From Gelatoporia subvermispora B (Eukaryota > Basidiomycota > Agaricomycetes > Polyporales > Gelatoporiaceae), in contig KB445793.1 of assembly GCA_000320605.2 (NCBI GenBank), positions 1,413,771-1,444,985 of the forward strand: a DNA stretch of 31,215 nucleotides. The letters are read 5' to 3'. A program made the translations under genes and the position numbers. Under the pieces are notes generated by a model, which did not search any database, was not told the origin of the DNA, and saw nothing but the letters and a program-made list of their open reading frames with translations. Of this stretch, positions 567-30,432 are shown piece by piece; the stretch's first letter is position 1, and each line of letters starts with the position of its first letter.

Positions 567-1563
567 CTAATCACGGGGCGCGTCGACACGGCGGCGCCCT
601 TCGTATGCCGGAGCTGGCTCAACAACACCCTCCACATCTTCGGCGGGCCAGTCCCCAAACAGCAATCCGGCGAGGTGCATAAGGCACTCTTCAACCTCTC
701 CAAATACCAGCGTGCGGCGGGGCTGCGCGCCCGAGTGCGCGCGGAGTAAACCAAGGTAGTGGCGGGCCCTCCGGAACAGCTCCCGGTCGACATCGGCTGT
801 GCGGACATAATTAGCAAGACCACATGCGAGCCGGTCCGACAACTCACGGCCAAACATCTCTATGGTCTCGTCGAGCAACAGCGATCGCTCGTGCATGCGC
901 TCCGGAAGGGGCTCGTACGCCGGACGCCAGAGACGGAGGCGCTCCGAGAGGAACAACATTCCGGGGGCGTCGTGGATACGGGTCAACCTGAAGTCAAGGT
1001 GTGCGGTGATGCTGGAGAGCTCCCGGAGCGAGAAGGACATGGGGACTGGGACACCGGTGCTCCGGAGCAGCTGAGCGTAGCTGTCGAAGAGGGCCTAGTC
1101 CCGGAGCAACGTCAACTCGGGGCGATTGGGTGCGACGGGAAACACGACGACTCACCACAAGGGTCCGGGTCCGACCGGCCCACCCGAGCCAGAGGTGGAT
1201 TTCATCGGGGTCAAACACGGGTTCGCGCTGAACCTCGGAACGGAGTAAAACACCGGCGGCATTATACCCCTCGAGCACCTGCGCGATGGCAGTCGGAGAG
1301 AGGCGCAAGCGAAGGGAAGGCACGACAGAAGCCATGGGGATTACGACAGACGGGGCGGCGACGGAGGGGGCTCCGGGAGGGGGCTGGAGAGGGAGTGGGG
1401 CTCGAGGAAGGGTCCGAAATACGTCCTGGATGGCCCCTTGGAGGGCACGCATCACGGAATCGGCCGGAAGCACATCGAGCCATTCCACAATGCGGTGGGA
1501 GTCCATCACAGATGGCGCAACAAGGCGACGGGGAAGAGAGCGACGGGGGCGGGTCCGTACCAT
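567..1563 (-). CDS. Two-exon gene of unknown family, left copy
   Basis: Exon 1 runs 1563-1156 (136 codons). An intron of 61 nt follows (GTGAGT donor, CTAG acceptor, 1155-1095), then exon 2 at 1094-567. The product would be 311 residues. I do not recognise the family and see no zinc knuckle, catalytic motif or membrane segment. The N-terminus is arginine-rich (MVRTRPRR), residues 50-75 are proline-rich, and the best conserved stretch contains LSPTAIAQVLE and DEIHLWLGWAGRTRTLV just before the intron. The second exon is helical-looking and rich in R, L and E. The right-hand copy at 30572 has an exon 1 of exactly 136 codons, an intron at the same place, and about three quarters identical residues by eye. 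Two diverged copies both staying open argues that this is real coding sequence, perhaps a Gag-like or accessory protein of the element. Confidence 0.6.
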
Positions 1564-1740
1564 CACGCACCGGTGCGATGGGATAACATCCCCGGAGGTG
1601 GATATGGGGGGCAGCCGATATACCGCGCGGGGACCAGCGGAAAGGCGACACATACCCGGAATAGGACGGGATCTCTTGCGCCGTCGGAACAAGGGAGAAC
1701 AGAGAGGAGACCTTGGATATTGGGCCTAGCGACAAGCGAT

Positions 1741-1945
1741 GCGATTCACTGTGCAGCGGCACGGAGGCGACATGGAACAGCGGTTCCAGCGAGTAGCGAG
1801 GCGATTCACCGTGCAGCGGCGCGGAAGCGACAGGGAACAGCGGTTCCAGCGAGTAGCGAGGCAATTCACCGTGCAGCGGCGTGAAAGCGACAGGGAACAG
1901 CGGTTCCCGCGACAGGCGACGTGATCCACGGTGTAACGGGGGTCG
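1741..1945. repeat. 60-bp tandem repeat in the leader of the left element
   Basis: Three consecutive 60-bp units start at 1741, 1801 and 1861, followed by a partial unit. The core is CAGCGGTTCCAGCGAGTAGC with only a few changes between units. Isolated fragments of the same core (CAGCGGTTCCAGC) recur near 1994 and 2102. A 60-bp period keeps every reading frame, so several overlapping ORFs cross it, but I cannot say that it is translated. Confidence 0.9.
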
Positions 1946-2790
1946 ACGCAACATCGGGATGAATAGAGGCCCAGGCAGATCGGAAGAAAACAGCGGTTCC
2001 AGCGAGAGGCGACACAACTCGCTGGGCAGCGGCTTAACTCACTGGGCAGCGGCTCGGATGGGACATCGGAATGGGCAATGACCCGAGCGGAGCGAGAGGG
2101 AACAGCGGTTCCAGCAACGGGGGCACCAGTCTCCGGGCATCGGCACGGAGGCGACGAGGGGGTAGTGGTCAATGACGCCGGAACCACGGAGCACCGGGTG
2201 GGGGCATGGAGGCGAGGAGGATACGAGGGTGCTGCCCCGAAAGTAGTGTCGGATCGGCGGTAACGGGGTGGGGGGTATGAGCCTGGGACGATTCGGAAGG
2301 CAGATAGGGAGCGGGAATGGAAGGGAAGGAGGAATATAGGGGGAAAGGGAAGAGAAGGGAGGGGCTTCCGGACCCCCTGGGAAGGGACACCATATTCCAG
2401 CCTTACGGCTCCGCACCTGCAGTAGATTGGGACACGCACACGCACAATCGGATTTCGTTGACATTCCGGAGCTCGATTTGTGGGTAGCTAAGGAAGCCCG
2501 CGCACTTAGAGGAACAAGTCCAGAAACACCTGCGCTCTCTCTAAGTACGGGACGGACGACCCCCCCGGAGCCTCCAACTAGTCCTTATTCCCTAACGCCT
2601 TGCATCCGTCGTCCACCGCCTGACTCCCACGGACCTGGGAGGTCGTACTCGATCTCGACTGCGCCCTACCCCAAGCATTACAACGCGCGCAAATATGGCA
2701 CCCCAATATGGAAGGGGACCTTCCGATGTTGTCTACCGGGGCTATGGCGCCTACATACGTCTGTGTAGCAATAGGCCATTTTCCTGATGC

Positions 2791-4817: not shown

Positions 4818-6990
4818 CTACATCAATTTGATTATCTGGATGTCCTTAGATGGCTTATCGAGTTTGTTTGACGATCTCAATTGCATGGACAACCTCCAGT
4901 CCTGACAAGGTCCCAACAAGGTCCTGACAAAAATTTGTATCTTTCTTGTCGAGCCGTAGCGTTGCATTATTTGAGAAGAAGAATTGCGGCCCCTTGGTAC
5001 CGGACCGGCGTTCGCCATGCTGACTGTACACGGCCTAATGTCGCGTTATTAACCACAAATTAGCGCCCACAAAGGGGAAGATCCTACCAGTCATGCTTCA
5101 ACACATCCATGAACTCATCCTCGAATTCGGCGCCCCAAATGGATGTCCTGCACGTTCCATCCCCAAGCGGGTCTCCAGTCTGGATCATGAGCTTTGGAAT
5201 AACACAATGGAAGATGATGCCCTCATAGTAGCCGCTATGAGCATGGCCAACAAAGTTTTCGACGGCTTTGGGCGCCTGTTGGGGGAATAGGGCAAGTGCA
5301 TGTCGCCTAGTGTAGTGTGGATCGTCGCGGTGTTCGCCAACGGAGACAGCGTGCATTTGCAGAAAGCAGGGGTCGATGGCGTAATAAATTGTTCATCCCG
5401 TGCGAGTTGTTCATTGAAGATGGCTCGGTCGTCGGACTTCTCATCCCTGTACCTTGTAAGCAACGACCAAATCGTATTCGAAATGTCGACTTCTCCGCGA
5501 GCAGCGGGTTTACAAATACGGCGGCCGCCTAACAAGGTCCATTCAGAAATTCGTACATCCCTGGAATGAGTAATCCGAACATACCACCGTCGTCAAGCCC
5601 TTCTTAGCCAGGGCACCTTGGTAAAGTGGAACGTTCATAAACGCACTGTCTCGTTCCCAGAAGACTTTGATCCGCATTCCAAGAACACGGCTATCAGGCC
5701 CTGGGAGCTCTAGTCCCCTCTCTACGGCACATATCGTCCATCCTGTACATGAAAGGTGCCAACTTGCTGCAGTTCCCGCATAACCGCCAGGGACTCATCG
5801 CACTTGTGCGTCAGCTTGCAGCTGAGGGAGGAGAACATTCATATTTGGACTAGGGCATAGTATCAAAATTTGTTGCATTCTAAAGTGGTAATATCGTTAC
5901 CTTCTGTATTCTAACAGATCTGCCACGCTTTTGTATGACCACAAGCCGGGAATTTTTCTTTGGTTCGAAGAATTGCCAGTACTCGACGAAGCCTCCCTCG
6001 TCTGCGGTTATAAGAGCGTTGTATCGGCCATTGTACTGATGACCTATGCCAGATCATTCAGGAATGTCAGTCAGCAATTGACGCACTGTCATGATCGGTG
6101 TAACTTGTCAATAATTTCCAGCCGCTAGCTAGTACTCCTCCCTTCGTGCAGTCGAGCTGTCCCGATGTTCTGTTTTGAGCTGCAAGTTAATGAGAAAGAT
6201 TGAAGCAGAGGTGCAGGAACAACGCATACTATGAACTGCTAGGATACCCTGCGCCTACCCTTCCGACGTACTCAGTAGCATGCATGTTGGGTATCACTCA
6301 GCTTCATCATGCTGATCATATCTAGAATGTGCGATAAGTAAAGGTCATCAAGCCTGAAGTAGGTCTGGCCTACCAAAGTTCACGACAACGAATACCTTGG
6401 CTGCGCCGTCCTCCGCAACACTCGCAGGCAGCTAGCCGTCCGCACTGCTGAGACGAAGGCTATCTGCGCAAGATGTGCACAGTAGTGCTTGACGACTTCG
6501 ATTCCCTGCTCGTTGCTCCCACAGCCTCAGATGTTCGTCAATATGTGTCGAATGGAGGAACTAGGCCCTGAATACGCGAACGACGAGGGGTCAGATTCCT
6601 ACATAGGCAGAAGGGAGATTATCCATGTACCTTGTCATAACACAGAGGTCAAATCACGTCTGTGGATGAAACTTTGAAGAGACGACCTGAGCCTGGAATG
6701 TGATCCATGCATAGCTTCTCACGTGCAAGGATTGACGTACCATTCGTCAGTTAGCAACCCTGTCAACTCGATACGGAACATGTGCACACCGCGACATTTC
6801 TTCTTTTCTTCGCAGTTCCGCTACCCGGTGCGTGCGATGGCATGGGCATAGGTCCAATGTCATCGTATCGTCGTCCGCTCCGCCTGCCTGCTGAGCCGAT
6901 GCGACCGTCTCTTGGGCCTGCAAAGCTGCACGCACGAGCGCACCAGGTTTGTGCATTGGGTTGCGCAACGATGCTCTCGAGTAGTGCCTG
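4818..6990 (-). pseudogene. PPWD1: PPWD1-like WD40/cyclophilin peptidyl-prolyl isomerase, degraded
   Basis: Functional members of this family carry an N-terminal WD40 propeller and a C-terminal cyclophilin domain and are linked to the spliceosome. Read on the minus strand, the pieces appear in the right order. There is an N-terminal DDIGPMPMP-like motif (near 6865-6830), then WD40 fragments such as QGIEVVKHYCAHLAQI (near 6500), and DEGGFVEYWQ followed by GLWSYKSVADLLEYRR (near 6000-5900). A linker with [10 protein letters not shown] follows, then the isomerase domain: [46 protein letters not shown] and finally MANAGP. Domains switch among all three frames and stops are frequent; one frameshift lies near 6864. 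The catalytic-loop motif usually FHRVIP reads FHCVIP. It is a clear pseudogene; the 5' end lies within about 80 bp of the KDZ terminal repeat at 7051. Confidence 0.9.
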
Positions 6991-7050
6991 GGTTGAGTCA
7001 GCGACTGGAAGGGATTGACAACACCCGAATGAAGGCGGAGGTGCAGGCGT

Positions 7051-7105
7051 CCCTGTAGCCGTTTCTCAAAACAGGCCTAATATGTTAGGCGCCCGATTTG
7101 CAAAA
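7051..7105 (+). repeat. Left terminal inverted repeat of the KDZ element
   Basis: Begins CCCTGTAGCC and contains AACAGGCCTAATAT and TTTGCAAAA. Against the reverse complement of 18998-19052 I count about 40 of 55 matching positions without any gap. Confidence 0.65.
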
Positions 7106-7106
7106 C

Positions 7107-7657
7107 GGCCACAAAGTGCTAGGGTTTTGGAAAATGCACCTGGGGCACTTAATCAATTATCCCTTAGATTCTGGGTTAGTTATACAATATTTTGACCTTT
7201 AGAATTTTTCGGAAAACTCCGTTGCAGTCACTACATGACACTACAAGATAAATCTACAGCTGCATTGATCAAAATGGCAAGATACATCGGAAATCGGGAC
7301 TAGATATATCAGTAATCGGGACTAGATACAGGTGATCAAATCTCAGCTACATAGCACACATCTGCACAATAATCTAATTGAATCCAGCCGACGATTCATC
7401 GCTGTACTCTCGGAATCAATTCTCAGGCACAGCCGAAAGGTGGAATTACTAGGGTGTGGGCTTCGGGCGTAGTTGTCGCAAATTAGATGTTAGGCATTGG
7501 GTATTGGACGTCGGGCGCTGTGCATCGGGCGCTGTGCGTCAGGCATCAGAGATGGGTGTCGGGCATCGGGAGATGGGGGGGCAAAAGATATGTTAAAACC
7601 ATGACGGACAGGTATCGCTTGAAGAATCTAACTTGGGAGAAGCTCAGCTTGCATCGT
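7107..7657. repeat. Left subterminal region with GGGCGCTG-type repeats
   Basis: No gene lies between the terminal repeat and the transposase stop. At about 7489-7578 short words such as TCGGGCGCTGTGC and TCGGGCATCGGGAGATGGG repeat with a 14-19 bp spacing. Such subterminal repeats often bind transposase in other superfamilies; here that is only a guess. The rest of the stretch is AT-rich with no feature I can name. Confidence 0.5.
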
Positions 7658-10600
7658 TCATTCATCGTCGCTTGCAGAATCATCAGGATCGTTCATGACT
7701 ACCTTAACAAGAGTCATGGATGGGCGGATCGGCATGCTTGTATATGAGAGCGGATCAGACTTGACGATAGTGGTTGCATTGTTCCGGATAGTAGACCACA
7801 TTTCCTCCCATTTCCTGGCCAGTGTATGCTCAGAAGCTGCATGCTCAGCAGCGTATGCTGCAAGCCCCTCCTGGAGAGCGTCGTCCTTGACCACACGGCG
7901 AGATTCTTGGCTAGTCCAACATTTGGCAGACCACTCGCAGAAAGCGATCGACTGTCGCATTTCTTCTTCCAGCAAGACCACTTCTTCCCACTACCGGAGA
8001 ACACGAGCCCGTGTCTTGGCCCATTCAACCCGGAGAGCTACCGGCATTGAGTTATAAATAAGATGAGTGTATAGCTTGAGAACAAACATACCTTCTTGCA
8101 TACTTTCACTGCCATCGTCATCCCTATCAAGAAGCTCTCCAACACCTTCTGCATACCAAATCCAAGACAGTGTTCGTCGACTCTCCCCAAGCGCCACAGT
8201 CCCCTGGATTACTTTGCCTCCAACATTTTCACCAGCCTGCCGACCGGCGACCATGCGTACAGCTTGCCAAGTTGCCTTTTCCTGCTCCGTCAAGACGCGT
8301 TCATTAAGTCCACGAACATCGTCGTCGAGGAGGGGTCAAAGCTCCTGCTCCCACTCGCCAGGACCTTTAAGAATCAGCAAAGCTGCCCAGGCACGGCGAT
8401 ACTGATGCTTGGCTTTGAGGACATGCTTGTCGATGGTCTTGTGCCATTGCCTTGCACGCGTCTGTGCATAGTTGCCAACAGAATTCTTGGTCTTGAAACG
8501 AGAGGCAAAGAGTCGATTGCGAAGTTGGTGGCAAAGATCATGCAAAGCCTCATGCGCTTGGCCAACTCGAAGGCGCTCTTCGATCTCGATAAGAGATGTG
8601 CTGCAGATGGAACTGCAAGCGGCATTATCCGTGATGTCTGAAGGTAAATAGAGGCAAATGGTCTCCGGTTCTTGGGACAAGACAGGGTCATCTTCAGGCA
8701 GGGTAATATGGCGTGAGAGTTGAGGCATGTGTACAGCTTGCACTTCCTGATACTGAAGGATCCGCTGACGAAGTGCAGAACGACGATCATGTCGCAGGGC
8801 AGCGTCAAGAGCGTGCAGATGCGGTTCATTTTCAAGCTCATCGCGGAGGGTAATTCAAGTATCCAGCCATTTAGAGTAAGACAACTGCATGAACTACGCA
8901 CTGCTGACCCTCTAGCTCTAAGCCACACACAATGAATGCCAACGGTGTTGAATCAAGAGATGCCTGGCCTCCGCTTGCATGCCACGAATGTTCTTCTGCA
9001 AGATCAGCTTTGATTGCGGACATTGTGACCGCTAAGATATACATAAGTCACCCCGCACACCGGCATTGAAGCGCAGAACTTACTTGGTTTGGCTGCTTTG
9101 TAGGGGCAAGGCAGCGACATGTTGGCCTCCCAAGCTATAATCGCCTTCTCCCACTGCGTGACTTCTGCTGATTGTTCCTTGCGCAGCATGCTGTCGAAAG
9201 CAATGAATTCTTCCTGGTGTTCGTAGTATTGCTTGACGCCCTGAACCATGCGCCGAAGAAGCAAATCCCCTAACACAAATTTAGCGGATGAAATCACACT
9301 AGCTGTCCATGACTAACCTAAGCCAACCATTTTCTTCCAATCGGCGTAGCCACAGAAGTCATCAATGGTTTCTCTGCGCGAGGAGGGGCCCATCTCCTTC
9401 ACACTGGGCGCCACCTTATTGAGACCAGGCCAACAGCGTTCACAGCCCTCGCCGTCTGTGTACCCAACCCCCCTACGATAATTGTAGGAGTAGGGGCCTT
9501 GGCAGGGCTCACCGTGCCCCACCAAGTGCGCCTTGTTGATCTTGGGAATGATCGAGGTGCGCGATAGCTTCATGTGGAGCTGAGAAGGAAGAGCCGGCAT
9601 GCGGGTCCAGAACTTCTTGAAGTATTCGCATGCAATGTCGTAGGATGCGATTATCGTAAGGTATACAATGCCCAGAATGCTTGACAAGAAGACGTAGTCC
9701 ACATTACAAAATCTGGAAAGCGATCAGCAGGGACACACACAGAACACGTGAGACGGACCTTTCTCCTCGCTGCAAATCCCCTAGGCCGTTAGGGCGGAAG
9801 GTTTCATGTCGGGAACACGACGCTGCTGCCACTCCGGTGGCACTCAGGGTCTTGGACTTTTTCAGATTTGCTAAATTGACGGCCTTGAAGGTAGAGCAAG
9901 TGCTAATCTGGATGTGATTCAAATGAGCTATCGTAGTCTACTGTCCAGAAAATAATAGATAAATACCTCATCTTCAGACATGAACCGGCTGATATGCTCC
10001 ATGTACTTGCTGTGCTCAATGTAGTATGACCATCCTGGAGATAAGGTGACGTCGGTGATTTTTGACTTCCGACTGCGACCCTTCAGCCGGAAGTTGCAAT
10101 CCTTGGACACGAAGAGGTTATATTTGAATCTAATCTCGCTTGAATTACTCAGGCGTTGCTAGAGAGAGCACAAATAAGACTTACAAGGTGGCGGGGTCTG
10201 CCTTCTGCCAATCACTTGGCAGATTCTTGTTAGGGTGGGGACATGCACGGCACTGGACGGCGAGAGAACCCTCCATTGTGCCAGCTACACCAGTGGGGTC
10301 ATGTGCGCGGCCTCCACGCTTTAACATTTTAATGTTTCGCCACTCTCGTATAACAGTCATAAACGCGGGGAGTCGGTCCTGGTTACTGGGTATGAGTAGA
10401 TGAAAGGAGCATGAGATTCATCAAACTTACCGGAAGCTTTGTAAGGTGTCGACTGTCCATCAAATTCTCCAGTGAGCGATAGAAGTCATATGCGGTAATG
10501 TTGCCCTGAAGGTTCTGCGAGTGGAATTGGTGCAAGACGGCCATTGTGAAACACGTCTCTGGATCAAGTACGGTGGCTGGCCACCAGCTAGCGCATAGAC

Positions 10601-11432
10601 ATTGTGTACAATGTTCTAAGCCAAGGTTGCAATGGCAGAACTTGACCTTCACCCGATGAATGCCGTTCACATGAACGACAACTATGTCGCGTGGGGGCGT
10701 CGACATGGGACAGTGTGTGTTGGGCTGGTGTCCGAGTTGAACGTCTGCGCCGATGTCGTGTAACGATGTCCTTTCAAAAAAGGAGCCGTTCCAACGCTAC
10801 ACCGCAACAATGTATCAGAGGACAAACAAAATAGACAGGTTGGTAATGCACCTCAATTCGATGGAGAGGCAACGATGCATGGCTGCCTCGCATGCAATCA
10901 CTACACAGCAAGTCGCCTCCAAAACATTCCATGCAGCGATAGGCTGAGGCCCCTATGCTGCATCGAGGACACCCTAAATCTTTTGCCCACCCTCGACCCT
11001 CTAGGCACAGCAGCTCGTCCAAATATTTCTGACGTTTTATGATCCAGGTTGTGAGAGGGGAATCCTGAATTGGAGGTAAAGTGATGCTTTGAAGTATGAA
11101 GGTAAGGTGCAATATACGGAGTTCTCATATCGCTTGGCACGAGTGGACGTCTCGACTGTGATGCCTGCAAGCTCGTGAACCAACACAGATGTTGTCAGAG
11201 TAGAATCCGGGGGCCATTGTTCTGTTGGGTACGGCTTGTCACAGTTATAAGCTGGCAACGCCTCAGGAACAGATGCCTTCTCAAGCGGATGGCTCTCGAC
11301 ATAAAGACGGCGTTGGTCATTGAAAAGTGTGAACGTGCTGGCATCGTGGGTGGGAGTAATGTGATCAGCGTGGACGTAGATTGTGGGCTGGGCGGTGACC
11401 TTGCGCTTCTTATGTTTCCGTGGGGCCGACAT
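7658..11432 (-). pseudogene. KDZ-superfamily transposase with N-terminal CxC2 cysteine cluster, two nonsense codons
   Basis: Cut-and-paste transposase with an RNase H-like core. Exons by splice signal and phase are 11432-11118, 11064-10852, 10796-10431, 10378-10185, 10138-9967, 9907-9759, 9712-9318, 9269-9084, 9031-8898, 8836-8092 and 8037-7658. They add up to 3249 nt (1082 aa) with all phases matching. Residues 137-173 form the CxC2 cluster (CPRC, CMEC, CSDC, then two His). The core holds VDY (D475), ASYDIAC (D495), a VGHGEPC motif and TDGEGCER (E558/E561). These acidic residues are the likely catalytic set, an assignment made from memory. The C-terminal third is alpha-helical. In-frame TGA at 8336-8338 falls where the family has Arg before PLL, and TAG at 7991-7993 falls before WEEV. 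The intron between exons 9 and 10 has weak signals (GTAGTT, ATGAG). The 2OG gene lies just upstream on the same strand. Confidence 0.93.
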
Positions 11433-11728
11433 AGGTGGTGTGTGCAAGCGTGCGAATCTGAGCGAGAGTCACTAGGCGCCATTCAACACCATTCAAAGCA
11501 GGTCACATGACATTTAACATGTTCGCCACAAGTAGCTACAGAAGAGAAGGAGATGCTCTATCCACCACCAGAGAACGCTACCTCACAGTCGGCTGAGAGG
11601 CTCTGCACTTTAGAGAACCGCTCGAGAGAATTCCCCCACCGTGTAACATCGTTAGAGTGCAATTCCCTATGTAACTCCGGTCGCTCGAGCTCCAAATTAG
11701 CCTCCGTGAAGAAGTTGTATTCGACATG

Positions 11729-13500
11729 TCAGAAAAGGCCTCCAGCAGCGAAAGACACCATCGCCCAACGTCTTTCTCCTGGTTGGATGCATGTATTGCC
11801 GTGCTCCAACACTGCAGATGGGATATAGACCAAAGATCCTAGGGGAAACTGTATAGCCACTCTGAGCGGGCGGAGCACAAGATGGCCTCCTTTCCTATGG
11901 TCAAATTTGCCACCAGCAATAATACCACACAACCCCGGGGCGAAGTTGGCTGCATCCCTATGCTCATAAGTTGTCGCGTTTGGGCTGAGGTTGAATGATA
12001 CCATTGGGAACGGAGTAACATCGAACAGCTTACGGAGGTCGGGATATTGAGCCATCAGAACGTCCAATATCGCCACGTAGTACCTCCATAACTTAGGAAA
12101 GTAGCACGCAAATGTATCTAGATAGCGGGCAATGAGCTATTCAGAAAAACAAGAATTGAGGAATAACAATCACAGTTCACAAATCCTGCAATACGTTGTA
12201 AAGCCGGCGTGTTGCACAGATCGGCCAGAATACCCTGCCGTCGAGCTGAATGGCTCTTGTTCATGGGAAGCTGTTGTCCGCCGCCGAAGGAGAACCCGGT
12301 CGATATTGACGCATAGTTGCCCCGCCGGTGATCCGAGTGTTGCAGGCCTATTCGCACTCGCGCAGCCTCCATTGCTGTTTCTGCATCGCGCATGCATAGG
12401 TCCCAGGGCTCGCTGCCGCTTGGCTTGCCAACTAGCATGGCAAATATAGTGTTCGACTCGTCAACGAGTGCGGTTGGTGTCCTGGGAAAAGGCAGTGAGG
12501 CCAATCTTCAACGGTTAGGGGGTCAAGAACATACCGGCCGTCCCATGCAATGATGTCCAGGCCATCCCTTGTCACATCCTCCAGGGTAAACACCCTGTGC
12601 TCCACCACCCGCCGCTGTCCGATCCAACCCCCTAGCGCTGCCGGTAATGCACCGACGTTCTTGCTGACTGTATGCGCCTTCAACTCTTTGTACTTCTTGA
12701 ACAGGGAGAGCTTGATCCTGCGGTCCGAGAGCGGCATGAGTTGCTTCTTCCTCGATATCTTCTGCCTGCGAAGCTTACGCTTCCGGAGTTTCCGCGAAAC
12801 ATGTTCGCTTGGGGTCTGAGTTGCCGGTGTTGCAGATCTGGTGGACTGTGGTTGCTCAGTGAATGAGGGGCTGCAAGAGTTGCCCCAGCCACAGTTGGAC
12901 TGCCCTGAGGAAACTGTGGCAGGTGAATGGACAGGCGGAGGAGAAGGCAGAGGGGACTGTGGAGGAGATGGTGGAGAAGGCAGAGGGGACTGTGAAGGAG
13001 AAGGTGGAGGAGACGATGGGGGAGACGATAGCGGGGATAGCGAGAAGTCGTCGCAGCTTCTTGAATCCGTTTCGTCGTCGACCGTAGTTCCTGTAGCTGC
13101 GTCAGAGCGGCGCAAAAGATTCTCGAATGTGCCGTTGAATCGTAGAACAGATGGCTCTTGAAGGGTGAAGGGCGAGTATTCGGCGCCACTTCTTGTCTGT
13201 GGACCAGTGAATATCAGGGCTGCTGCAGTACCATGACTATTTCTACACACCTTGCGCATGGACGTTAACAATGAAAAAAGAAAGCAGTTGACTCGCTCTT
13301 GAACTGTAGCAGGATGGAGTGCGAAACGAATGAGTGGCAGCAGATGAGTACTGAACATGAGCGCCTCCGGACTTGTGCCGCTTAATGCGCTATGGCGTCA
13401 TGCATTCTAACTTAAATGGAATTCTACTTACATTCACTTGCCTGCTCGACAGGATCCTCCATATCATTTGTTCAATATCAGGGGTCTTCGACCTTGCCAT
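11729..13500 (-). CDS. TET/JBP-like 2OG-Fe(II) dioxygenase, C-terminus cut by a premature stop
   Basis: Exons are 13500-13432, 13364-13251, 13196-12535, 12481-12181 and 12136-11729; phases agree and the product is 517 aa. Residues after RKTRSGAEYSPF form a Ser/Pro-rich linker, followed by a basic, possibly nuclear-localising stretch (RKLRKRKLRRQK). The oxygenase domain follows: ALVDESNTIFAMLVGKP, HRRGNY, FSFGGGQ and RIAGF. The double-stranded beta-helix keeps YEHRD (H441, D443), LEHGN (H494) and ERRW (R504/505), the residues expected to bind iron and 2-oxoglutarate. Related fungal TET/JBP proteins oxidise 5-methylcytosine in DNA; activity here is inference. The TGA at 11729-11731 follows AAGGLF. 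Beyond it the same frame stays open to 11558 and reads HVEYNFFTEAN onward, which is what family members have after that point, so about 56 residues are lost. The start is the first ATG with a clean GTAAGT donor behind it. Confidence 0.85.
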
Positions 13501-13747
13501 TGTGCTTCTCTTGTATACTACTGGGACTACGCATCTCCTCGAATAGACTGATAATTTAGGGCTCCTGTAATTATTTATACCGCCTAAACAACGGTACTAT
13601 TGCAAGTGATGCAACATATTATGACTCGTTCACACTTCTGAGGAGAGGAGAGGGTATCCAAATCGATTACAAACAACTGACAACACATGCAGTAACAACA
13701 TAGACAACAACACATGACAGCGACAAACAATAACGACAGCGAGACGA

Positions 13748-15464
13748 CTAGAACTGATGCTCGGGCGGCGGCGATGGAGGTACCAACTTGACATAGCTAA
13801 ACTGATGCACCTGGCGTTCGGTGATGGCCTTCTCATACACCCTAAGACCCTCCTCCTTGGTCAAGAAGCAGTTGTATACTGCTCCCTTGACCTGGACGAC
13901 AAAATCGGCACAGTCCAGCCTGCTGAATGGTTAGTTTAGTACCTGTTTGAAAGCGACTACACTTGCCAATCATCGAACACCCCAACCTGCAGCCCACGGA
14001 ACACCACCACGCAGCCAGCATCAACAAGACTCACGCCCGGGTGGAGATATGATGGCGGGATCAAGAGATAGTTCCGGTTATGGCCAGGTGTCCAGTCGTC
14101 TAACGGAAAGTTGAGAACATTACTCAGCCTATCATGAATGAACCCTCTCACCTGACACAACAGTACGATAATGGTTCAGTGGATAATGGTACAGAGCATC
14201 CCTGGCATCGATCTGGTCGAAGACGTCTTCTGCTGCATCCAACGTGGGATACCCCTTGAAGATCGCACAAGAGAAGCGGTGGGTAGCCTCTACCACGTCA
14301 TCCCTGTAGCTCATTAGTTACCCGATCACATGAGACGCCGCGTAACACACCAATCAGTGTAAACACCGGGGCCTCTGCCACACATTACGACATACGCTTC
14401 ACACACAGGGGGAGCCGTCACCTCTGAAATGATACCATATGCGACCTCAGTTGACAACGGCGCCCTCTTACGCAAGACGCACACGTACCTTTGACAAACA
14501 ACGGCCAGTCCGACCTAATGCCGCACTTGCGCAACTTGTAAACAAAAGTGTTGCTACCACCACGAGCAAGGGAAGCGGCCTCGTACCTGTAAGCGCATCA
14601 ACACGGCATTCTGACACGATGACGAATCACTTACCAGTAGGGCGTCTTCATCGTCAACACACCAGGTACTATCGCAGCGTACCGTGGGGGGCAATCGTCC
14701 TCCTCAGCAAGCCTACTTGCTGCATAACGCCGCTGAGCAATGGTGTCAGTGAATGGGGCACCAGAGTAGCTGTGCGCCGGGAAGTGATGCTCAGGGATGA
14801 TGGCGGGGAGGTCGCCTAGGTCAACTACAACATGACGTATGCGAGCCGGGGGAGATGTAGGTAGGGAGAAAGGTTTCGCTGTAAGAGATGAAGACGTTGA
14901 GCTGGGGGAGGGAGGATGGGAACACGACGAAGTAGGGGTGGGAGGACGGGAAAACAATGACATAGGAGTGGGAGGACACGAGTCAATACCAGCACATAAT
15001 GTATTCGACCCTAACTGCAACGCTACGCTGTCCCTGGCAATTCAAACGTCCGACGGCGATTGCTTCCGAGTACGCAGGTGTGATTGTGCAGTCGAGGAAT
15101 TTTGATCTGGCGAGCGAGGCCAATCGACGGGGGAGCCAGGTCGACTGTGAAGGGACACCCAGTTGGGCTTTCCGCTCGCACAATCTCTCTCAGATGTGAA
15201 CGTGCAATCCGATGTCGGCGATGGGTTGGGCGACGGCCGACCAACGGGTGATGGCGGGCTGCTGTGCTCTTGCGGCAGAGAGTGATCTGCCCAGTCTGCT
15301 TGAGGCATTAGCCAGCGGGTCGTGGTTGACGATGGTTACTCACTGATTGATTGATCGTCATCCTCACTCTCAAGGAGCAACGCCAGCTGCAAGGACTCCG
15401 CCAGCATGTCGACGCCGCCTCTTTGGCCGTCGATGACATCAGCGGACGCACCGGCTTCGGCCAT
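13748..15464 (-). CDS. Protein with two viroplasmin/RNase H1 N-terminal-like domains
   Basis: Seven exons: 15464-15344, 15295-14635, 14586-14489, 14423-14351, 14303-14152, 14099-13967 and 13919-13748; phases agree (470 codons). The first 260 residues are acidic, then Ser/Pro-rich and low in complexity. Domain 1 (about 304-345) reads YVVMCGRGPGVYTDW and then SCAIFKGYPTLDAAEDVF. Domain 2 (about 394-440) reads CVVVFRGLQVGVFDDW and then KGAVYNCFLTKEEGLRVY. This is the small fold found before RNase H in eukaryotic RNase H1 and in caulimovirus viroplasmin; it binds RNA/DNA hybrids or dsRNA in studied cases. No RNase H domain follows. The intron after domain 2's tryptophan is GC-AG (GCAAGT donor). 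A TGA at 15042-15044 breaks exon 2 unless a 51-nt intron with a weak GTACTC donor removes it; both readings keep phase. The gene's specific role is unknown. Confidence 0.78.
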
Positions 15465-15866
15465 ACCAAAAGCCCCGGGCAGACGGCAAGCACCCAACGA
15501 GAGGTAAAGGAAAGCAGAGAAAGAGAGAAGAGAGGACGACCTGCGATGGCGTCCAGGATGCACAAGGGGTGGTTTATATATGGTGGAGAGTCCTGTTTGG
15601 GGCTCCGCCGGGGCTTGCCATAGACACGTCAGCAGGGTCCGTGCGCAACACGTGAAGTCTCACGTGAAAAAATAAAATAAAATGGTACGACTGAGGGTCG
15701 ATCCCGGAGAGAAGCAAAATAATTTGATGGAGACAAGTTTACCGCTAGGCCAACTTACCAGACGAAGGTGTTGAAAAAGGAGACGGTGCATACCCTTCAC
15801 AGAGTGGGATGGCGCCGCGCGTTTCATGTGCTGACGCGCCCTGCTTCTTCTGCGCCGTTTTTGAAC
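15465..15866. promoter_or_regulatory. Divergent promoter region with paired CACGTG boxes
   Basis: This 400-bp gap separates the start codons of the viroplasmin-like gene (minus) and the fourth gene (plus), so it should hold both promoters. Two perfect CACGTG palindromes lie at 15649-15654 and 15661-15666. CACGTG is the classical site of bHLH factors; binding here is not shown. A GA-rich stretch precedes them near 15500-15535. Confidence 0.45.
15683..15759 (-). other. tRNA-like sequence (degenerate tRNA or tRNA-derived)
   Basis: Read on the minus strand from 15759: a 7-base 5' arm GGTAAGT, an A-box-like TGGCCTAGCGG, a B-box-like GATCGACCC, then TCGTACC, which can pair with the 5' arm at five of seven positions. 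A T-rich run like a pol III terminator follows (15661-15682). The D stem and the anticodon stem pair poorly, so I do not call a functional tRNA or assign an anticodon. It may be a tRNA pseudogene or the head of a SINE. Confidence 0.4.
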
Positions 15867-18503
15867 ATGGGTAAGAAAAAGAACCCGAAGGTTTGTGGAC
15901 GCAAATCGCAATGGACGAAACAGCAAAATCAGTATCTGCTGAGCCGTCTTCCTGACTGGCAGGCTGCTCAGAACCGCAGCCAGGTCGGAAGGTTCTATGA
16001 TCGCATTACCGTCTTCTGCCTTCTTGTCTGGGGACCGGATATAAAGACAGACGCTGACAAGGAGGAGATTTTTGACGAGCCGGAGGATGACGAGCTGCTA
16101 GAGATACCTGGAATCAGCTCTGGGACTGAGGAAGACCAACAGAAGAGGCGAGAGGAGTTTGAAAAACTTCGAAAGGTTAGCTCTACTCTTTACAAAGCTA
16201 GTAATGTGCTAAAGACACTTGCCGTTAATCAGCAACTCATAGGCTGGTTTTCACGTGAGGGCAGGAAAGTGTCCAGGCTTGGTGACAGCAAGGAGGTCAA
16301 GCAGTTGTTTGCCGCTATCTTGAAGGAGGCGACAAAACCTCCGCGCAAGTCCTCTGTGCTCGTCCAGTACCAGAAGATCTACTATCAGGACAAGATCAAG
16401 GCTACATTTGAGGTCAAGTACAAGAAACTTTACGAGACCTGGGAAAAGAGCTGCAAGGAGGGTACCACCGATCCAGAGAAGCCTCCCACTGCAGTCAAGA
16501 TTCGAAATGAAGTTGCGACGGAGAAATGGCGTAATGAGACCCCAGAGTTCCGTCATCAAGTTCGCTTGCTTCGTGATGAAGAATATGAGAAGGAGGTTCA
16601 AGATATGAAGGACCTGCAAGATGCGCCGGAGCCGGATAATGTCACACTGTAAGCCGTTGTCTATGTTACTGTTGCAGCGCCTGAGAGCTCGCTGCAGATC
16701 CTTACAAGCAACAGCCGTAATTGTGCAATCACTCGCAGATGGTCTGGCAGCACGCTATGGCATAGTGGCATCCATCCTACTCGCAGGGCCTATCCCTGAG
16801 AAGGGTGGCGTTCTGGAGGTACGCAGGTTAGTGGGGCTATATTAGGGCTCAAATAGAGAACTCACCGCTTGTGTTAGCGTCCACTCAGGCACAACTCAGG
16901 GCTGGGAAGCGCAGATTTGGCCAAAATCGGACCCTGATGGATTCACACAAGTAGAGACGGTCATGCTGCGATTTGCTGACAAGGCATTCCGTGAGTATTA
17001 TATACATTTACTCCTTTGATATCTAAAAAAGGATGTGTCCAGCCGTCAGCGTTCGGAATGCGCATGCACAGAAGTATATGGCAAACGCACCAGGTTCCAA
17101 TGCTCCTGCTGCCAATCTATGCGACGCTCCCACAGGATCACCCATCGCCCTCCACACAGAGCCGCATACAGAATCTACTCAGCCAGCTGAGATAGCGCCT
17201 GCAACCCGGGAGCGCTCCGCCGGATCGCCCAAGCGAACGTTCAAGAGCAAGCCTCAACGAGCATATCGCAGCAAGAAAGCAGCAAAGAAAGGATCTCACA
17301 AGAAGACTAGACAGACTGTGGTAGAGGAGGCAGTGGCGGTGACGGAGGAGGAGGAGGAGGAGGGGGAGGAGGAGGAGGAGGGAGGGAGGGGGAGGAGGGA
17401 GGAGGAGGAGGAGGCTGTCTCTAGCCAGAGCGAGGGAAGCGAGAGGGATGAGCCAGAACTTGACAGCAGCTCCGGCTCAAGCCGATCTGCTTCTCCGCTA
17501 CCTCTCTCATCCAATCCGCGGCGGTCTGAGCGTCGGGCGGTAGGTGCGGGCCGCATTCAAGAGCATGTGAACACTCCAAATGTGGCCACGTCACAGCCGC
17601 CGTCTGACCCGCCGTCCTCGTCGTCGTCTCCGCTGCAGCCGCCGCAGGTTGTTGTATCCTCTGTCGCCCCTGCTGAGGACCAGCCTAGAACCGTTCGTCA
17701 TCCAGCTACTCCGGTTCAATCTGCTAGCGGCACTCATCCCTGTGGGCCTGAGCCTCTTACCCCTCCTCCTACTCAACACTTGCCAGCCTCATCATCTTAC
17801 TGTGGTGGTTTCGGGACTCCACACCAAGACAATGCTGTGACTGCCAGAAATCTGGACAAAGTTACTATCAATGCCCCTGATCTCGCTGGCTGTTCCAACA
17901 AAATGAAGAAGCACTACAGCCTCCTGCTAGATACGCCTGGCTGGAATCCGGCGTGGGTGCTGTGTCTTCATCGATACATAGCGTTTGAACGTAGGCTCGG
18001 ATTCACGGTATGTATTCTATTCTATATACCATACATAAGTCCTAAGTTAAGGCCAGTCCAACGACTACCGGATCGCTACTGCGGAGCGACCTGTGGACAT
18101 TGGGAGCTGGATCAAGTGCGGGCGTCCAGAGCTCAGCCCCAAGTTCAGCAGCTTCGATCGGTTTACTCAACAGCTTGAGGCATGGTGGAAGTCCATGCAG
18201 CCTGCTGAACGTGGTGATGGTACCTTGCGCTCAAAGAATATCCCGCCTGCTAGCTGGGAAGGGCTTCATCGACCCGGAAGGAACGGCTTGTTTCTCGTTC
18301 TTGTTGGCTTGCTGTGGTGGGGCCGTGAGCTCTACAAGCAGGGAAAGCCGACGGATGCTGGTTCTCTCACGCGGTGGGTGCTCCTACTGGATGACGTGGC
18401 TTGGGTTCTCGAGGCGCAGATCACAGTATCCCTGGCGTCACCCATAAAACGCAAACTTCCAGCCCTTGAGAGGCCTGCGAAGAAGCAGCACACAGGTGCC
18501 TGA
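15867..18503 (+). CDS. Large basidiomycete-specific protein of unknown function, intact fourth gene of the KDZ element
   Basis: Exons are 15867-16648, 16698-16826, 16878-16990, 17043-18007 and 18057-18503. Phases agree and the frame is open for 811 aa. An earlier in-frame ATG exists at 15768, but MGKKKNPKVCGRKSQW resembles the start of relatives. Regions in order: a helical, charged N-terminal part (to about 260); a compact segment with ARYGIVASILLAGPIPEKGG and VHSGTTQG (about 262-341); a long low-complexity stretch with an acidic run (about 440-465, from a GA-rich microsatellite at 17341-17412); and a C-terminal module containing FERRLGF, IGSWIKCGRP, FTQQLEAWWKSMQP and LVGLLWWGRELY. I recognise the domain set from many unannotated agaric proteins but know no function and see no catalytic motif. 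It is the only gene in this element without a premature stop, and it diverges from the viroplasmin-like gene. Confidence 0.78.
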
Positions 18504-18997
18504 TACCTGGATTAGCTTTGTTCATCTATGGACTCGTCGTGTATGCCTCCTGTTTAACATGCCCCAATATATGCTACATCTGAGATTTGTCGGGATATTA
18601 CCAATTTTGTCAAAATGGGCGGAGAAAGCGCGGGCCGTGCCCAACGGGGCGGGCGAGCGAGCGGGCCGTGACAGGCTCCATGCGGTGGGACAGGGGGGCA
18701 GCTGCTCGGATAGCGTGCAGGTACAGCCGACAAATCAGGTGCAGCAGGCACACAGGTACGCCCGACGAGGCGGGCACAGCAGGCGCGCAGGTACAGCCGA
18801 TGAGCGGCATGAACAGCATGCAGGTACACCTAATAAGGTGAGCGCCATAAGCACCAGACACAGTGGCAACAGATGCGCAATAACAGAACATCTGGATTGG
18901 GACTTAAGCAACAAACATAAATGCAACCCAACATGTGACCACTGAACTTATCAGGGTTATTATTGGATTATTCATATCTCAAAACGGAACTAGGGTC
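18504..18997. repeat. Right subterminal region with a 35-bp minisatellite
   Basis: No gene. About four units between 18719 and 18860 each begin GGTAC(A/G)CC and continue through a GCAGGC or GCATGCA word, with a period of about 33-35 bp. The region just before (18620-18690) is GGGC/GCGG-rich. The remaining sequence up to the terminal repeat has no feature I can name. Confidence 0.6.
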
Positions 18998-19052
18998 TTT
19001 TGCAAAACTGTCCACTGCTATATTGGGCCTGTTATTCAAATTGGCTACAGGG
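18998..19052 (-). repeat. Right terminal inverted repeat of the KDZ element
   Basis: On the minus strand it begins CCCTGTAGCC at 19052 and continues with AACAGGCCCAATAT and TTTTGCAAAA, in register with the left repeat at 7051. Confidence 0.65.
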
Positions 19053-20979
19053 AGGAGTGGGAGGTGCACGGTGCGACATAGCTAGACACAATGCGAGAAA
19101 CATTGAGTCAGGCACGTGACAATGGATTGTTCTGCTCATGCGGAACTTGGAAGTGGAGGCGATGGTGGACTCGGGTTCGATGCTGCAGTCCCGGTGGCGA
19201 GTATGGCAAAGGTGCGAGAGAACGTGAAAGTTAAGCGAGAAGCGGAGAGCATGTTGTAGAGAGTGAAGGAGGATTATACGGAGTGCACGAAAGAGAGAAG
19301 GGGGAAAGGATTGCGGAAGGAGGAGGTGGAGGATGACTGGGATGGAAAGCCGAAGATGAAGCTGCGTGTCTGCGTCTTGTCTTGTCCACAGGGTTACTGA
19401 CCCAGAAGACTGCTCGCGTCCCTACCACAGCTCACGCGGGACTCGTCTGATATGCTGGGTTGATTGTACAGATGCTTGGGGAGTAGTGAGTGTTATTGGC
19501 ATGCAGGGGACTGCAACTGATTCCCGCCGGGTTACAAAATATATTCTTTCTTTCTCACTGGGAATTTTTTCCGGCGCGCGGCAGGTTTTAACTATGCGCC
19601 TGCCTATGTGGGCGTCATGGACGCACACATCTGGGCCGGAGCGCCTGGTTCGATGTTCTCGGGGTACTAGGAGAGGCTGCGCATGGGGTGAATGGTCGGA
19701 GTTTATTACTTGCCGCTACGAGTAGAGATCACAAACGGATCACAGATCTAAATCCGTCGTGCAAATCTCTGAGAAGACACTATCTAATGAAAAAGTAGGT
19801 TCCCGGAATCGTATGGGTGTCTATCTCACCTTCAATTGCCTCCATCTCTCCAGCAGCCGAATGTGGCGCTAATTCATGTGAATGGATGTGGACCCGTAAT
19901 CTACACTGTACTCTCATTTAGGTCGCAAGAACAGGGTAGTGGGCAATTGGCAGGTAAGGTGGCTAATGTATTGTCCAGTTATAAACAATCTTCAAAACGC
20001 AAACACTCAACTTCCAGGCCAAAATCTGGACAATGTCCTGGATGCGAGTGTTTGGTGTTCTAAACAGGTGCTCTCAATAAATTATGGGCAATGACAAGAG
20101 TCTTCTTTAAACACTTTGATGTTTTTGTCGAGCAAGAAAGGCTCTACGCAGCTATGTGCCGCCTCAGATGCGGCGCTCTCCTGGCATCCAAGATGTCCCT
20201 GTTGGTTATCATTGCCTCATTTACCAGGCCTCTGGTGCCCATTGCCCCGTACTGATCTCTGCGCTCTGATTACTCCTGACGCCCGGCAGGAGAGCCGCCC
20301 TAGGACCACGCAGACGCTCGCATCAGCAAAATCTCCATTCTGATTTATCCACTTTGAGCCACACTTTCCCACCTACTTTTGGCTGGGGACAGCTACTTTG
20401 ATCGCTTTTTTTACTATTTTCCCTTTACCGTTCTAATATCCCAGTATCACGTGCGCAAGTGGTAGGAAAAGCAGATAAAAGTACCAAAAGTCGTACAAGC
20501 GCCATTAGTCATCCAGCGTCACTTGTGGCGCTTTCGGCTGATAGTCAAAGACGTGCGCAAAAGACGTGTAGAAGTAACAATAGTCGTGCAGAAGTAATGA
20601 TAGCTGTACAAAGCATGTCAAAGTCAGCGAAGCCGCGAATTCAAGCTGCATACTATGTCCTCAAATTCTAATTCACACTATTAATATTTGCTTCCGAGTC
20701 GTGTGTACCACTGACGTGAAGTTCTGTCAAAAGATTGCAGTACAGTGACCTATCTCTTGCGTGCACGTAACGTCTGGAAGACACAGTCTATCATGAGCAT
20801 CAAGAGAGAAGGGAATATGAGTCTTCTTAGACTCACTGTGAACATACAGTAAACAACGGCTGTAGTACTTCCTCTTAAACCTGTTCCACGAGATGCAGCT
20901 GCTGACCCTGAGCCTTGGTTGAAGGACGTGGCCTTGCTGCACAGCCACTCAGAGTCGTGAATTATGTTGGAGGAGCTTG
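19053..20979. other. Gene-free stretch between the KDZ and Plavaka elements
   Basis: I see no supported gene. Bases 19220-19345 are purine-rich (GAAGGAGGAGG-like). Near 20440-20640, short AAAGT/GTCGTGCAGAAGTAA words recur imperfectly, with a pair of about 20 bp at 20569-20609. ORFs here are short and match nothing I know. The 3' end of the Plavaka element, including any terminal repeat, should lie in this stretch, but I could not identify it. Confidence 0.5.
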
Positions 20980-25919: not shown

Positions 25920-28281
25920 CACAATTTTTGCTACAGTACCGTAGCCATTCCAGAGATCACCGGAAGGCATATGTGCAATCAGATACTCCGTATATTCTTG
26001 GCAGCGACGGAGTGGATTCTCGTCAAAATTTGGTAAACGCCCGGTACATCTGTATAATGCAACTTAGTGTGTTTCATCGAACTTTGACTACTCATCTATA
26101 TCACTTACTTAGGGCACCATCCTTGTACAATACATCCCAGCAGGGCTTGTTCGGGATAGTCAGCAATATACGGGCCAATTCCATATATTGCGCGACGAAA
26201 GTGGCCATCGGGGCATCGAACTACCTCCCACTGGGTGAAATTTGGTTCCAATTTTGCAAGAATTTTCGACAGCGTTGTGTGTACTAGCTGTCTTCGGAAT
26301 GTGCGGAATTCAGAGTCGTTTGCATATTTCTTGTCCGCTAATAGAGGTTCAGATGGTTGCAGCGAAGATGAGTAATTAACTTACTCTTTGGAATTGCGAA
26401 GAACCCAATGACAACAACTGAGTTCCGATGGGCACGCCGGACATTATTATGGATATTCCCAATGGAAAGGTATAGTGGATAATATTCATTCTGCCCTGTC
26501 CCGACAGAAACTGTGGTCTTGTCACTACCGAGGATGATCGGCACAAAAATCGAACCATGGGTCTCTGAATCAGCGGCAATCTGAGTCTAAAACAAGTGAT
26601 TAAGTTCTCGGAATAGAGAATAGAAGAGGGAAATGGCGACTAAAAACTCACAGCTTGCGACCATGCCCAGTCTCCTGGCATAAAGTCTTTGCGGCGCAGG
26701 CCACCGCCTTCCTTTTGGGGCACGTGATCTTAGATCGGTGTATAGTCAAATTTGTCCTTGAAGTCCGGATTTGCCAGGATGTGCTGGATCACAGCGCGAG
26801 GATCTCTGTACCAGACATCATAGTCGGCTAGCTGCCACGCTGGTGGTGATCCATCTGAATCTATGTCACCGGTATAGTTAAGACTAAGTGGCTCCCATGG
26901 GACGTCGCCAAGGGGTATCGAGTCAATCATATCGTACAGGGACTTGTGTCCCTGGAGAGGCGGTGAGCCATTGTGTTTGGCCAGTGTTGCTGCCCAGAGA
27001 AGTGAGAGAAAATCAACATCACCCGCTGACATCTGATTCTTAGAGTAAATGAAGTCGGCGGTTTCGAAGTGAGTCCGGTCGGTGAATGGATGGTATGGAT
27101 TAGGATTGGATGGTGGTCAATCTGGAGGTGGAGCGTCTTTCGGAAGGAACTCTCCATTGCTATTGCAAGGTCGTGCTGTTTGTCTTTGTAAGGTATAACG
27201 CTGAGCTCTCGAATATGGACCACTTACCATTCAACTGATGATGTGGTTCACGAATATACCCTTCCTCGTCTTCTTCATACACTTCCTCACCTTTATCCGC
27301 ATCTTGGACTTGCGCAGATTTTGCTGCTTTTGCTGCTTTTGCTGCTTGCGCCGCTTGCGCTTCTGCTTCTGCCGTCGCTTCCACAGCTTCTGCAGCTTCT
27401 GCAGCAGCTTCCGCTGCTCGAAGAACTTCAGGATCCACCTTTGTCAGCTTTTGCGGCTTTGGTAGTCACTTTGTGATATAATCATACCTTCGACAACCTC
27501 TTCATCTATATCCTCTTTCCCTTCTTGTGAGTGACCTACTTCATTGTTGTCGTTGTCATCATCATCATAGGTTCCGTGGCTATATTCGCCTTCATCTTCA
27601 TCATCGGAGTCATTGTCAACTAGATCTGGCATGTCCTTGAAAGCATCGCTGGGGTAATCTTGGTTCATGTCCACACCCGGAATGCGTCCATACCTAGTTC
27701 TGTTGGGTCTAGGAGTGCTTTCTGCGTCGACTATTTGCCAAGCTAGTTCATCGTCAAACGTGTCCGACAAGATGAACTCCTCGTAGGGATTGCTGGTCTC
27801 TTCGGCATCCTCGTCGTAATACTCATTTTCATCATGAGCGTGTATTGCGTGAAGTGCAGCATCCATGACCTCGAGCTGCTCCTGATATTCTGGGTCGGAC
27901 TGCTCATCGATTTCGACTTGCATGGTGTCTTCGTCGGGCCAGATCTCGTTGATGAGTTGACGGATGTCACCGTGGGCCTCCGCGGCAGGTGACGCTTCAG
28001 AAGAGTCTTGCTGAGATGTGCGTCCTGCGAGGATGAATCGCCACTGTTTCGAGTATAGATAACGGCCCATACTTACCTGGGTCGCTGCCCATGGACTCCA
28101 CTATACGTCGATTTCGCCTAGTTGCACGATCGCGTATGATCGGTAGTGGTAACTGGCCTGGATGGCAGTAATCTATGTGCCGTCTCATCCCCGAGTTCGT
28201 AATGCACTTCTTAGTGCACGTCGGAGCAAACGGACACAAGTATCGGTGCGGCTTCTTCTCGCGACGTCGAGATCGCGGCAT

Positions 28282-29683: not shown

Positions 29684-30132
29684 TGTAATGCTTGGGATAG
29701 GGCGCAGTCAAGATTGAGTACGACCTCCCGGGTCCGTGGGAGTCAGGAAGTGGACGGCGGATGCAAGGTGCTAGAGAACAAGGGCTAGTTGGAGGCTCCG
29801 GAGGTCGTCCGCCCCGTGCTCAGAGGGAGCGCAGGTGCTTCTGGAATTGTTCCTCTTAGTACGCGCACTTCCCCAGCTACTCTCAGGTCGAGCTCCGGAA
29901 TGTCAACAAAAATCAGATTGTGCGTAGGCGTGTCCGAGTCTACTGCAGGTGCGAAGCCGTAAGACCAGAATATGGTGTCCCTACCGAGGGGGTCAGGAAG
30001 GCCCCCCCCCTCCCCCGCTCCTCCACCGCTATATTTCCCCTTCTGTTCCGAACCTCGCAACTGCACGCTTCCCTCGAGGCCGCGGATCTGGTGATACCCT
30101 CGGGGCAGAACCCTCGTTACCTGCTCGCATCC

Positions 30133-30432
30133 ACACCGCTACGGAGGAAGCCTCGTCGCCCGCCCCTGGAACCGCCGTTCCGTGTTGCGCCCGTGCCGCC
30201 GCACGGTATATCACATCGCTTGTCGCTGGAACCGCTGTTCCATGTCGGCTCCGTGCCATTGCGCAAGAAACCGTGTCGCCTGTCACTGGAACCGCTGTTC
30301 CGTGTCGCCTCCGTGCCGCTGCACGGTGACTCGTGTCGCCTCTTGCTGGAACTGCTGTTTCGCGTCGCTTCCACGCCCCTGCCCGGTAAATCGCATCCCT
30401 TTTGTCGACGGAACCGCCCTTCCATGTTTCCC
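30133..30432. repeat. 60-bp tandem repeat in the leader of the right element
   Basis: Units start at about 30133, 30193, 30253, 30313 and 30373, with the core CTGGAACCGCTGTTCC. This is the reverse-complement counterpart of the left element's unit, with the same 60-bp period but more divergence between units. Confidence 0.85.

Follow-up and report, generated by a model that had tools for sequence, protein, structure and literature searches.

The window examined here is a stretch of 31,215 nt from the genome of Gelatoporia subvermispora B (C3:1413771-1444985), a white-rot wood fungus of the Polyporales, and it contains a transposable element of the KDZ type. The element spans 7044..19059 (+ strand; 12,016 bp), has the termini 5'-CA...TG-3' and is flanked by a perfect 7-bp target-site duplication (TSD), GGAGGTG, at 7037..7043 on the left and 19060..19066 on the right. 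Between its ends lie a KDZ transposase gene with a CxC2 cysteine cluster (7658..11432, - strand), a gene for a TET/JBP-like dioxygenase (11729..13385, - strand), a gene for a protein with two Cauli_VI (RNase H1 N-terminal or viroplasmin) domains (13748..15464, - strand; hereafter g3) and a gene for an 811-residue protein (15867..18503, + strand; hereafter g4). In each of the three elements that we delimited in this genome (the window element and two others, C16b and the C14 element, named after their contigs) a single pair of ends encloses these four genes, with their order and orientation unchanged. Each has exact ends and a 7-bp duplication, the three have diverged from one another, and all four genes have been under constraint. 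The original prediction, made from the window alone, had proposed a bounded KDZ unit that carries TET, viroplasmin and an intact unknown gene, with exactly four compact genes inside its ends, and in these respects it stood.

Ends and genes of the window element

The left end reads CAGGCGTCCCTGTAGCC (7044..7060, + strand) and the right end, as its reverse complement, CACTCCTCCCTGTAGCC (19043..19059, - strand). Both carry the motif CA-N4-TCCCTGTA, a short (14-bp) imperfect inverted end that is common to the C14 and C16 elements. Matching inverted ends had been predicted at 7051 and 19052. Inverted arms are indeed present (7050-7105 and 18998-19053; 56 nt, 73% complementary), but they are subterminal, their 11-bp perfect core (TCCCTGTAGCC/GGCTACAGGGA) beginning 6 bp inward of the true ends on both sides. 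Positions 7051 and 19052 were rejected as termini, the TSD-flanked CA..TG ends lying 7 bp outside. The ends were located by inspection of the sequence, by a TSD scan and by an end-motif scan, the right one also from a decayed, diverged copy (C22:531168-534550) that is 90-93% identical to the right part of the window element. Similarity to this copy is lost directly after ...GTG, at 19059/19060, which confirms the right end. A 21.8-kb run of Ns (C22:509351-531130) adjoins the copy on its left and may hide its left part. Near its right end the copy carries an insertion of about 850 bp (C22:533280-534132; L009 8280-9132).

A blind scan for CA/TG with identical 7-bp flanks, run over the three loci, returned nine pairs (two in the window, two at C16 and five at C14), six of which lacked the end motif and are probably due to chance. 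For this reason a TSD alone is weak evidence, and the pair accepted at each locus was the one with CA-N4-TCCCTGTA at both ends. The end-motif scan recovered both outer ends in each of the three elements and gave one additional match inside them, at window position 14294 on one strand only. The TSDs of the accepted pairs, GGAGGTG in the window, CGTCTAT at C16b and GCGCCTG at C14, are all perfect. CA..TG termini were present in all three; these were also a criterion of the scan, but they are backed by the breaks in homology. The repeat in the window (GGAGGTGCA) runs 2 bp past the 7, the TSD scan covered the 7-bp length only, and by length alone an 8-bp duplication is possible there; CA..TG with 7 bp holds in all three elements.

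The transposase gene was modelled with 11 exons. In the Pfam searches its protein matched the KDZ domain PF18758 over the full profile (1-217; E 2.5e-57) and CxC2 (E 3.2e-36). The model contains two premature stops, TGA at 8336..8338 and TAG at 7991..7993 (both - strand), which correspond to codons 872 and 969 of 1079 and lie downstream of the catalytic domain. The dioxygenase gene was modelled in three exons (13385-12535, 12481-12181 and 12136-11729) with a premature TGA (11729-11731) at the C-terminal edge of the TET domain. The frame of a possible first exon at 13500-13432 did not join, leaving the first exon uncertain. When five TET sequences were aligned, H-x-D, H and R were invariant in all five; the arginine that follows the iron ligands also has a role in TET enzymes. 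The two histidines and the aspartate are the iron ligands of TET (PMC12730594). On the basis of these conserved ligands, its position and the literature the oxygenase is predicted to be a TET enzyme, its Pfam score being sub-threshold. A single-sequence structure model of one TET exon (pLDDT 44.5) was unusable for fold comparison, and a Pfam Tet_JBP scan of the genome gave no match, the controls being equally silent.

The g3 model has seven exons and two Cauli_VI (PF01693) stretches (E 1.3e-20; 73.8 bits against a cut-off of 21). Among the families that were predicted for the unit, KDZ, CxC2 and the viroplasmin domain were recovered by profile, but Tet_JBP stayed under the Pfam cut-off. A TGA at 15042-15044 falls in the linker of g3; it is intronic in the deposited model from the same strain, CERSUDRAFT_92358 (P0002), which splices around the stop and by eye is the g3 model spliced differently. 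The C-terminal catalytic domain of RNase H was not found in the window g3, for which the Pfam scan lists Cauli_VI alone. In the hybrid-binding domain of RNase H1, Trp and Lys residues act in binding. Domain 1 of g3 gave a weak match to the human RNase H1 hybrid-binding domain 3bsu (E 0.15) with the Trp and one Lys aligned, and domain 1 of the C14 protein has two lysines at the corresponding site; binding of RNA or hybrid by this domain is plausible. Domain 2, the best conserved stretch, aligned weakly with 1qhk (E 0.21), the Trp included. In all four sequences (those of C14 and C8 being near-identical) it keeps the Trp and has Asn in place of the lysine, and binding of RNA or hybrid by domain 2 is doubtful. 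A separate piece at C34:50206-50786 resembles the double Cauli_VI protein (58% over 55 residues, E 3.1e-7, with a Cauli_VI match); no KDZ, TET or g4 match was listed within 40 kb of it.

The g4 gene (five exons) is open, and in the models made here it is the only intact gene of the window copy, the KDZ, TET and viroplasmin genes all containing stops. Its protein matched no family above the Pfam cut-off and, among the PDB sequences, gave only weak matches to unrelated proteins. Protein-database searches, which scored about 8000 candidates each and in which absence means little, returned one protein for g4, one for g3 and three for the g4 alignment (two of the five are the host's own and one is a repeat). 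They placed relatives of g4 in Mycena and Marasmius. The protein from Marasmius crinis-equi (P0004), which matches the g4 family at E 1.1e-5, is named 'SERTA domain-containing protein 3', a name that looks unrelated to its architecture. A model of the Mycena relative, made with a five-row alignment, was mostly helical (pLDDT 43.7).

Related elements and constraint on the four genes

The genome searched comprised 37.7 Mb in 52 contigs. Following protein searches of this genome, loci on C22, C16, C14, C8 and C23 were read, and the TET loci on C18, C1, C21 and C12 were left out. The search for other copies with the same ends and gene set yielded C16b (C16:606845-619379; 12,535 bp) and the C14 element (C14:889640-902004; 12,365 bp). 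The original prediction had named two outcomes that would speak against it, other KDZ copies with ends elsewhere and genes that never co-occur, and neither was seen within this genome. BLASTN homology between the C14 element and C16b begins and ends exactly at the assigned element ends.

Both elements bear the marks of insertion as a whole unit. C16b interrupts an intron in the KDZ transposase gene that belongs to another, more diverged element, C16a. Once C16b and one copy of the TSD are left out, this intron is 50 bp long with GT-AG borders, and the transposase gene of C16a is modelled with no stops and no frameshifts. When the flanks of the C14 element are joined, an open frame continues across the junction and similar repeat units lie on both sides.

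Genes of C14 and C16b were modelled with a purpose-written spliced aligner, the g3 models being reliable only around the two Cauli_VI domains. Each of the two KDZ genes has 10 introns and neither stops nor frameshifts. The TET genes have no stops; frameshifts number none in C16b and two in C14. Four introns interrupt g4 in the window, C14 and C16b copies alike, and two Cauli_VI domains are present in g3 of C14 (1.3e-20) and C16b (2.1e-21). A second copy of the C14 family lies at C8:112021-122533 (98% identity over 5.2 kb in two pieces). It contains an insert of about 5.3 kb and is bordered on each side by a run of Ns, and its g4 would fall in the left run. The insert (C8:113557-118905; L054) shows a 9-bp overlap at the junction, which suggests another transposon with a 9-bp duplication. 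On C23, TET was found with no match to KDZ, g3 or g4 within the 10 kb read. By hand grouping, the genome contains at least 38 KDZ loci and at least 10 TET loci, six having both within about 5 kb; the four-gene unit is one sublineage of a large KDZ population.

The three delimited elements were compared in pairs after stop codons had been dropped. C14 and C16b were the closest pair in every gene, with identities of 65% for KDZ, 64% for the TET domain, 62% for the g3 domains and 62% and 56% for the N and C parts of g4. In pairs with the window element the values were 54% for KDZ, 47-49% for the TET domain, 37-43% for the g3 domains and 37-41% for g4. The proportion of synonymous differences (pS) was 0.71-0.88, saturated or nearly so, compared to 0.22-0.46 for nonsynonymous differences (pN). 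The four genes have diverged in step with their proteins retained, and the accessory genes look like conserved components. Between recent copies, in which changes are few, dN/dS was 0.35 for KDZ, 0.66 for TET (0.46 for the TET domain), 0.16 for a part of g3 and 0.67 for g4 (C3/C22); these copies contain one stop in the C8 TET gene and three in the C22 g4 gene.

CpG decay and the neighbourhood of the element

Of 5152 sites aligned between the C8 and C14 copies, 93 are different, and CpG transitions account for 72 of these. The transition rate was 0.090 per CpG position compared to 0.005 elsewhere (odds ratio 20.4, 95% interval 12.5-33.4). Between the window element and the C22 copy, CpG transitions made up 81 of 180 differences (odds ratio 7.5, 5.4-10.3). 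A repeat pair at the window edge (4.3% different), the only control comparable in age, gave an odds ratio of 2.8 (1.7-4.4). Rates in CpG and elsewhere were 0.236 and 0.122 for a gene duplicate (14.5% different) and 0.188 and 0.235 for the left and right repeats (22% different), and CpG accounted for one of six differences in a 187-nt inverted repeat. Pairs of KDZ elements that lack TET are 26-31% different, too diverged to serve as a CpG control. The simplest reading is that the elements were CpG-methylated in the past. Because the controls are too few, the effect is not attributable specifically to TET elements. Repeat-induced point mutation (RIP) was rejected as the cause of decay: the C-to-T changes are dominated by CpG, not CpA, and the composition indices of the element resemble those of its flanks.

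Other features of the window lie outside the element. A Plavaka transposase domain at 26730-27116 (- strand; PF18759, E 2.3e-18) is a transposon remnant 7.7 kb to its right. Inverted GC-rich, coding-like repeats of 1.5-1.9 kb, 75-83% alike, occupy the edges of the window (734-2690 and 29684-31215), and at about C3:1405990-1407580 (L011 ~990-2580) there is a third copy with about 96% similarity to the right one; two open reading frames in the edge repeats matched no Pfam family. The 187-nt inverted repeat (3700-3886/4048-4234) is 97% complementary with a 161-nt spacer and is hairpin-like or MITE-like. An exon of a cyclophilin-type peptidyl-prolyl isomerase lies at 5084-5392 (- strand; PF00160, 1.5e-15), and a piece 82-85% similar to it is found about 7 kb beyond the right end of the window (L012 9261-9852).

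Relation to known elements and interpretation

TET/JBP and KDZ genes are reportedly neighbours in basidiomycetes (Iyer et al. 2014, PNAS). The present analysis adds to that association the delimited ends, the TSDs and the four-gene unit. The bounded, TET-carrying unit was offered as new in the original prediction, but TET+ Kyakuja with defined ends had already been published in December 2025 (Kojima 2025, PMC12730594). That paper describes such elements from Agaricomycetes, Polyporales among them, with CA..TG ends and 7-bp TSDs, and it proposes that they escape from methylation. The elements of this study agree with TET+ Kyakuja in the KDZ transposase, the TET/JBP gene inside, the CA..TG ends, the 7-bp TSD and the Agaricomycete host (PMC12730594). 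Kyakuja-1/2_LB are stated there to be without terminal inverted repeats (TIRs), whereas ours have the 14-bp imperfect inverted end CA-N4-TCCCTGTA. Cryptococcus neoformans KDZ1, KDZ2 and KDZ3 share the KDZ-domain transposase and a length of about 9-11 kb but are reported to have TIRs of 139-241 bp, CxC1 and 8-bp or 4-8-bp TSDs (PMC12810828), in contrast to the 7-bp TSD, CxC2 and short end motif seen here. Zisupton has an 8-bp TSD, a length to which the repeat in the window could also correspond; CA..TG ends with 7 bp hold in all three of our elements.

The g3 protein resembles the RNase H1 hybrid-binding domain and caulimovirus viroplasmin (PF01693) in its two Cauli_VI domains, and is unlike RNase H1 in having no RNase H catalytic domain and in the replaced lysines of domain 2. 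A viroplasmin-domain gene, capE, is also reported on a fungal DNA transposon, Pleurotus helpo1.3; that element is a Helitron with the capture on one long copy (PMC4289320), whereas here the gene is a component of three diverged KDZ elements. Neither viroplasmin nor Gelatoporia occurs in the main text of PMC12730594, and among the papers listed by a literature search whose scope did not extend to the supplements of that paper or to Iyer et al. 2014, none dealt with a viroplasmin gene carried by KDZ elements. TET+ Kyakuja are known; what appears to be new is a lineage with two further conserved genes.

We consider it probable that the window holds a decayed Kyakuja-type (KDZ) cut-and-paste DNA transposon that moved as one four-gene unit, and propose the following roles for its genes. 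From knowledge of the family, the KDZ transposase, a DDE-type enzyme with CxC2 as its DNA-contacting zinc cluster, would recognise the CA-N4-TCCCTGTA ends and cut the target with a 7-bp stagger. The TET-like oxygenase would oxidise methylcytosine on or around the element, and the genes of the element would thereby stay expressed, or its ends remain usable, in a host where transposons are methylated. Such anti-silencing by TET is likely. More tentatively, g3, which has no RNase H catalytic domain, could bind RNA:DNA hybrid or double-stranded RNA, an activity that would weaken RNA-guided silencing or tether the oxygenase to element DNA under transcription, and g4 could be a partner or adaptor. 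The unit is found in this genome in separate elements that diverged long ago, and this recurrence suggests that all four genes serve the transposon.

Several observations weigh against this proposal. Some genes of C14 and C16b may also be damaged: g4 has one frameshift in C16b and two stops and one frameshift in C14, and g3 has two frameshifts in C16b and one stop in C14. In C16a, KDZ and TET are accompanied by the C-terminal part of g4, but no g3 is recognisable, which would make g3 dispensable or lost there. Both RNase H1 lysines are absent from the second Cauli_VI domain. The Tet_JBP profile (PF12851) scored 18.5-22.2 bits in the window against the Pfam cut-off of 34.9 (best E 8.8e-5, one exon) and 15.9 bits, again below the cut-off, in C16a; only three of five TET members reach E<=0.1, and the comparison with PDB sequences matched no TET structure and gave only weak matches to unrelated proteins. 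The strong CpG decay suggests that, once inserted, the copies were not kept unmethylated by their own TET. All of the elements examined come from one genome.

The missing g3 of C16a and the stops or frameshifts in several g3 and g4 models of C14 and C16b would suit a standard TET+ Kyakuja that picked up the viroplasmin gene and g4 by chance, as passengers without a role, and transposons do capture such genes, capE on the Pleurotus Helitron being an example (PMC4289320). We think this unlikely, however, since g3 and g4 occupy the same place in the same orientation in all three delimited elements, g4 has four introns in each, and the proteins remain 37-62% identical although synonymous sites are saturated or nearly so. 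Joint divergence with the proteins kept argues against passengers. That a KDZ+TET element lies beside, or is nested with, a separate g3+g4 element is very improbable: a single end pair with one TSD encloses all four genes in the three elements, and within them the end motif was matched only at 14294. The remains of the Plavaka transposase nearby and the nested insertion at C16 are what can be said for such a composite. Protein-level constraint would also be expected of a domesticated cassette whose four genes act together for the host and not for the element, but the copies retain transposon ends, sit in introns or genes and are nested, and in our models three of the four window genes have premature stops. 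We give this explanation hardly any credence.

There is also a small chance that the oxygenase is not an eraser of 5-methylcytosine (5mC) but writes or edits another mark, either N6-methyladenine (6mA) or an oxidised base that persists as a signal, and works without demethylation. CcTET, described as a close relative of the Kyakuja TETs, is reported to act also on 6mA (PMC12730594), and oxidised methylcytosine accumulates over transposons of Coprinopsis and Laccaria (PMC12730594, PMC8889193). The strong CpG decay likewise suggests that methylation, or a mutagenic derivative, persisted. The oxygenase is nevertheless too distant from solved structures for claims at the level of residues.

The four-gene transposon that we favour can be read in a stronger form, which we regard as possible but rather doubtful. 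The unit would be a stable, co-evolving anti-silencing module made up of the transposase, a demethylase, a catalytically dead RNase-H1-like hybrid reader and a linking g4, with g3 either blocking RNA-guided methylation or guiding the demethylase to those parts of the element DNA that are transcribed (R-loops). If this were true, the CpG scars would document an arms race with methylation by the host.

With the delimitation of these elements, 'TET genes near KDZ transposases' becomes a four-gene element with two extra genes under constraint. The strong record of CpG transitions in copies that bear TET places an unexpected constraint on the protection that TET could give to its own element. The proposal predicts that the viroplasmin protein binds RNA or RNA:DNA hybrid and matters for TET action, and the escape of fungal transposons from DNA methylation becomes testable gene by gene.

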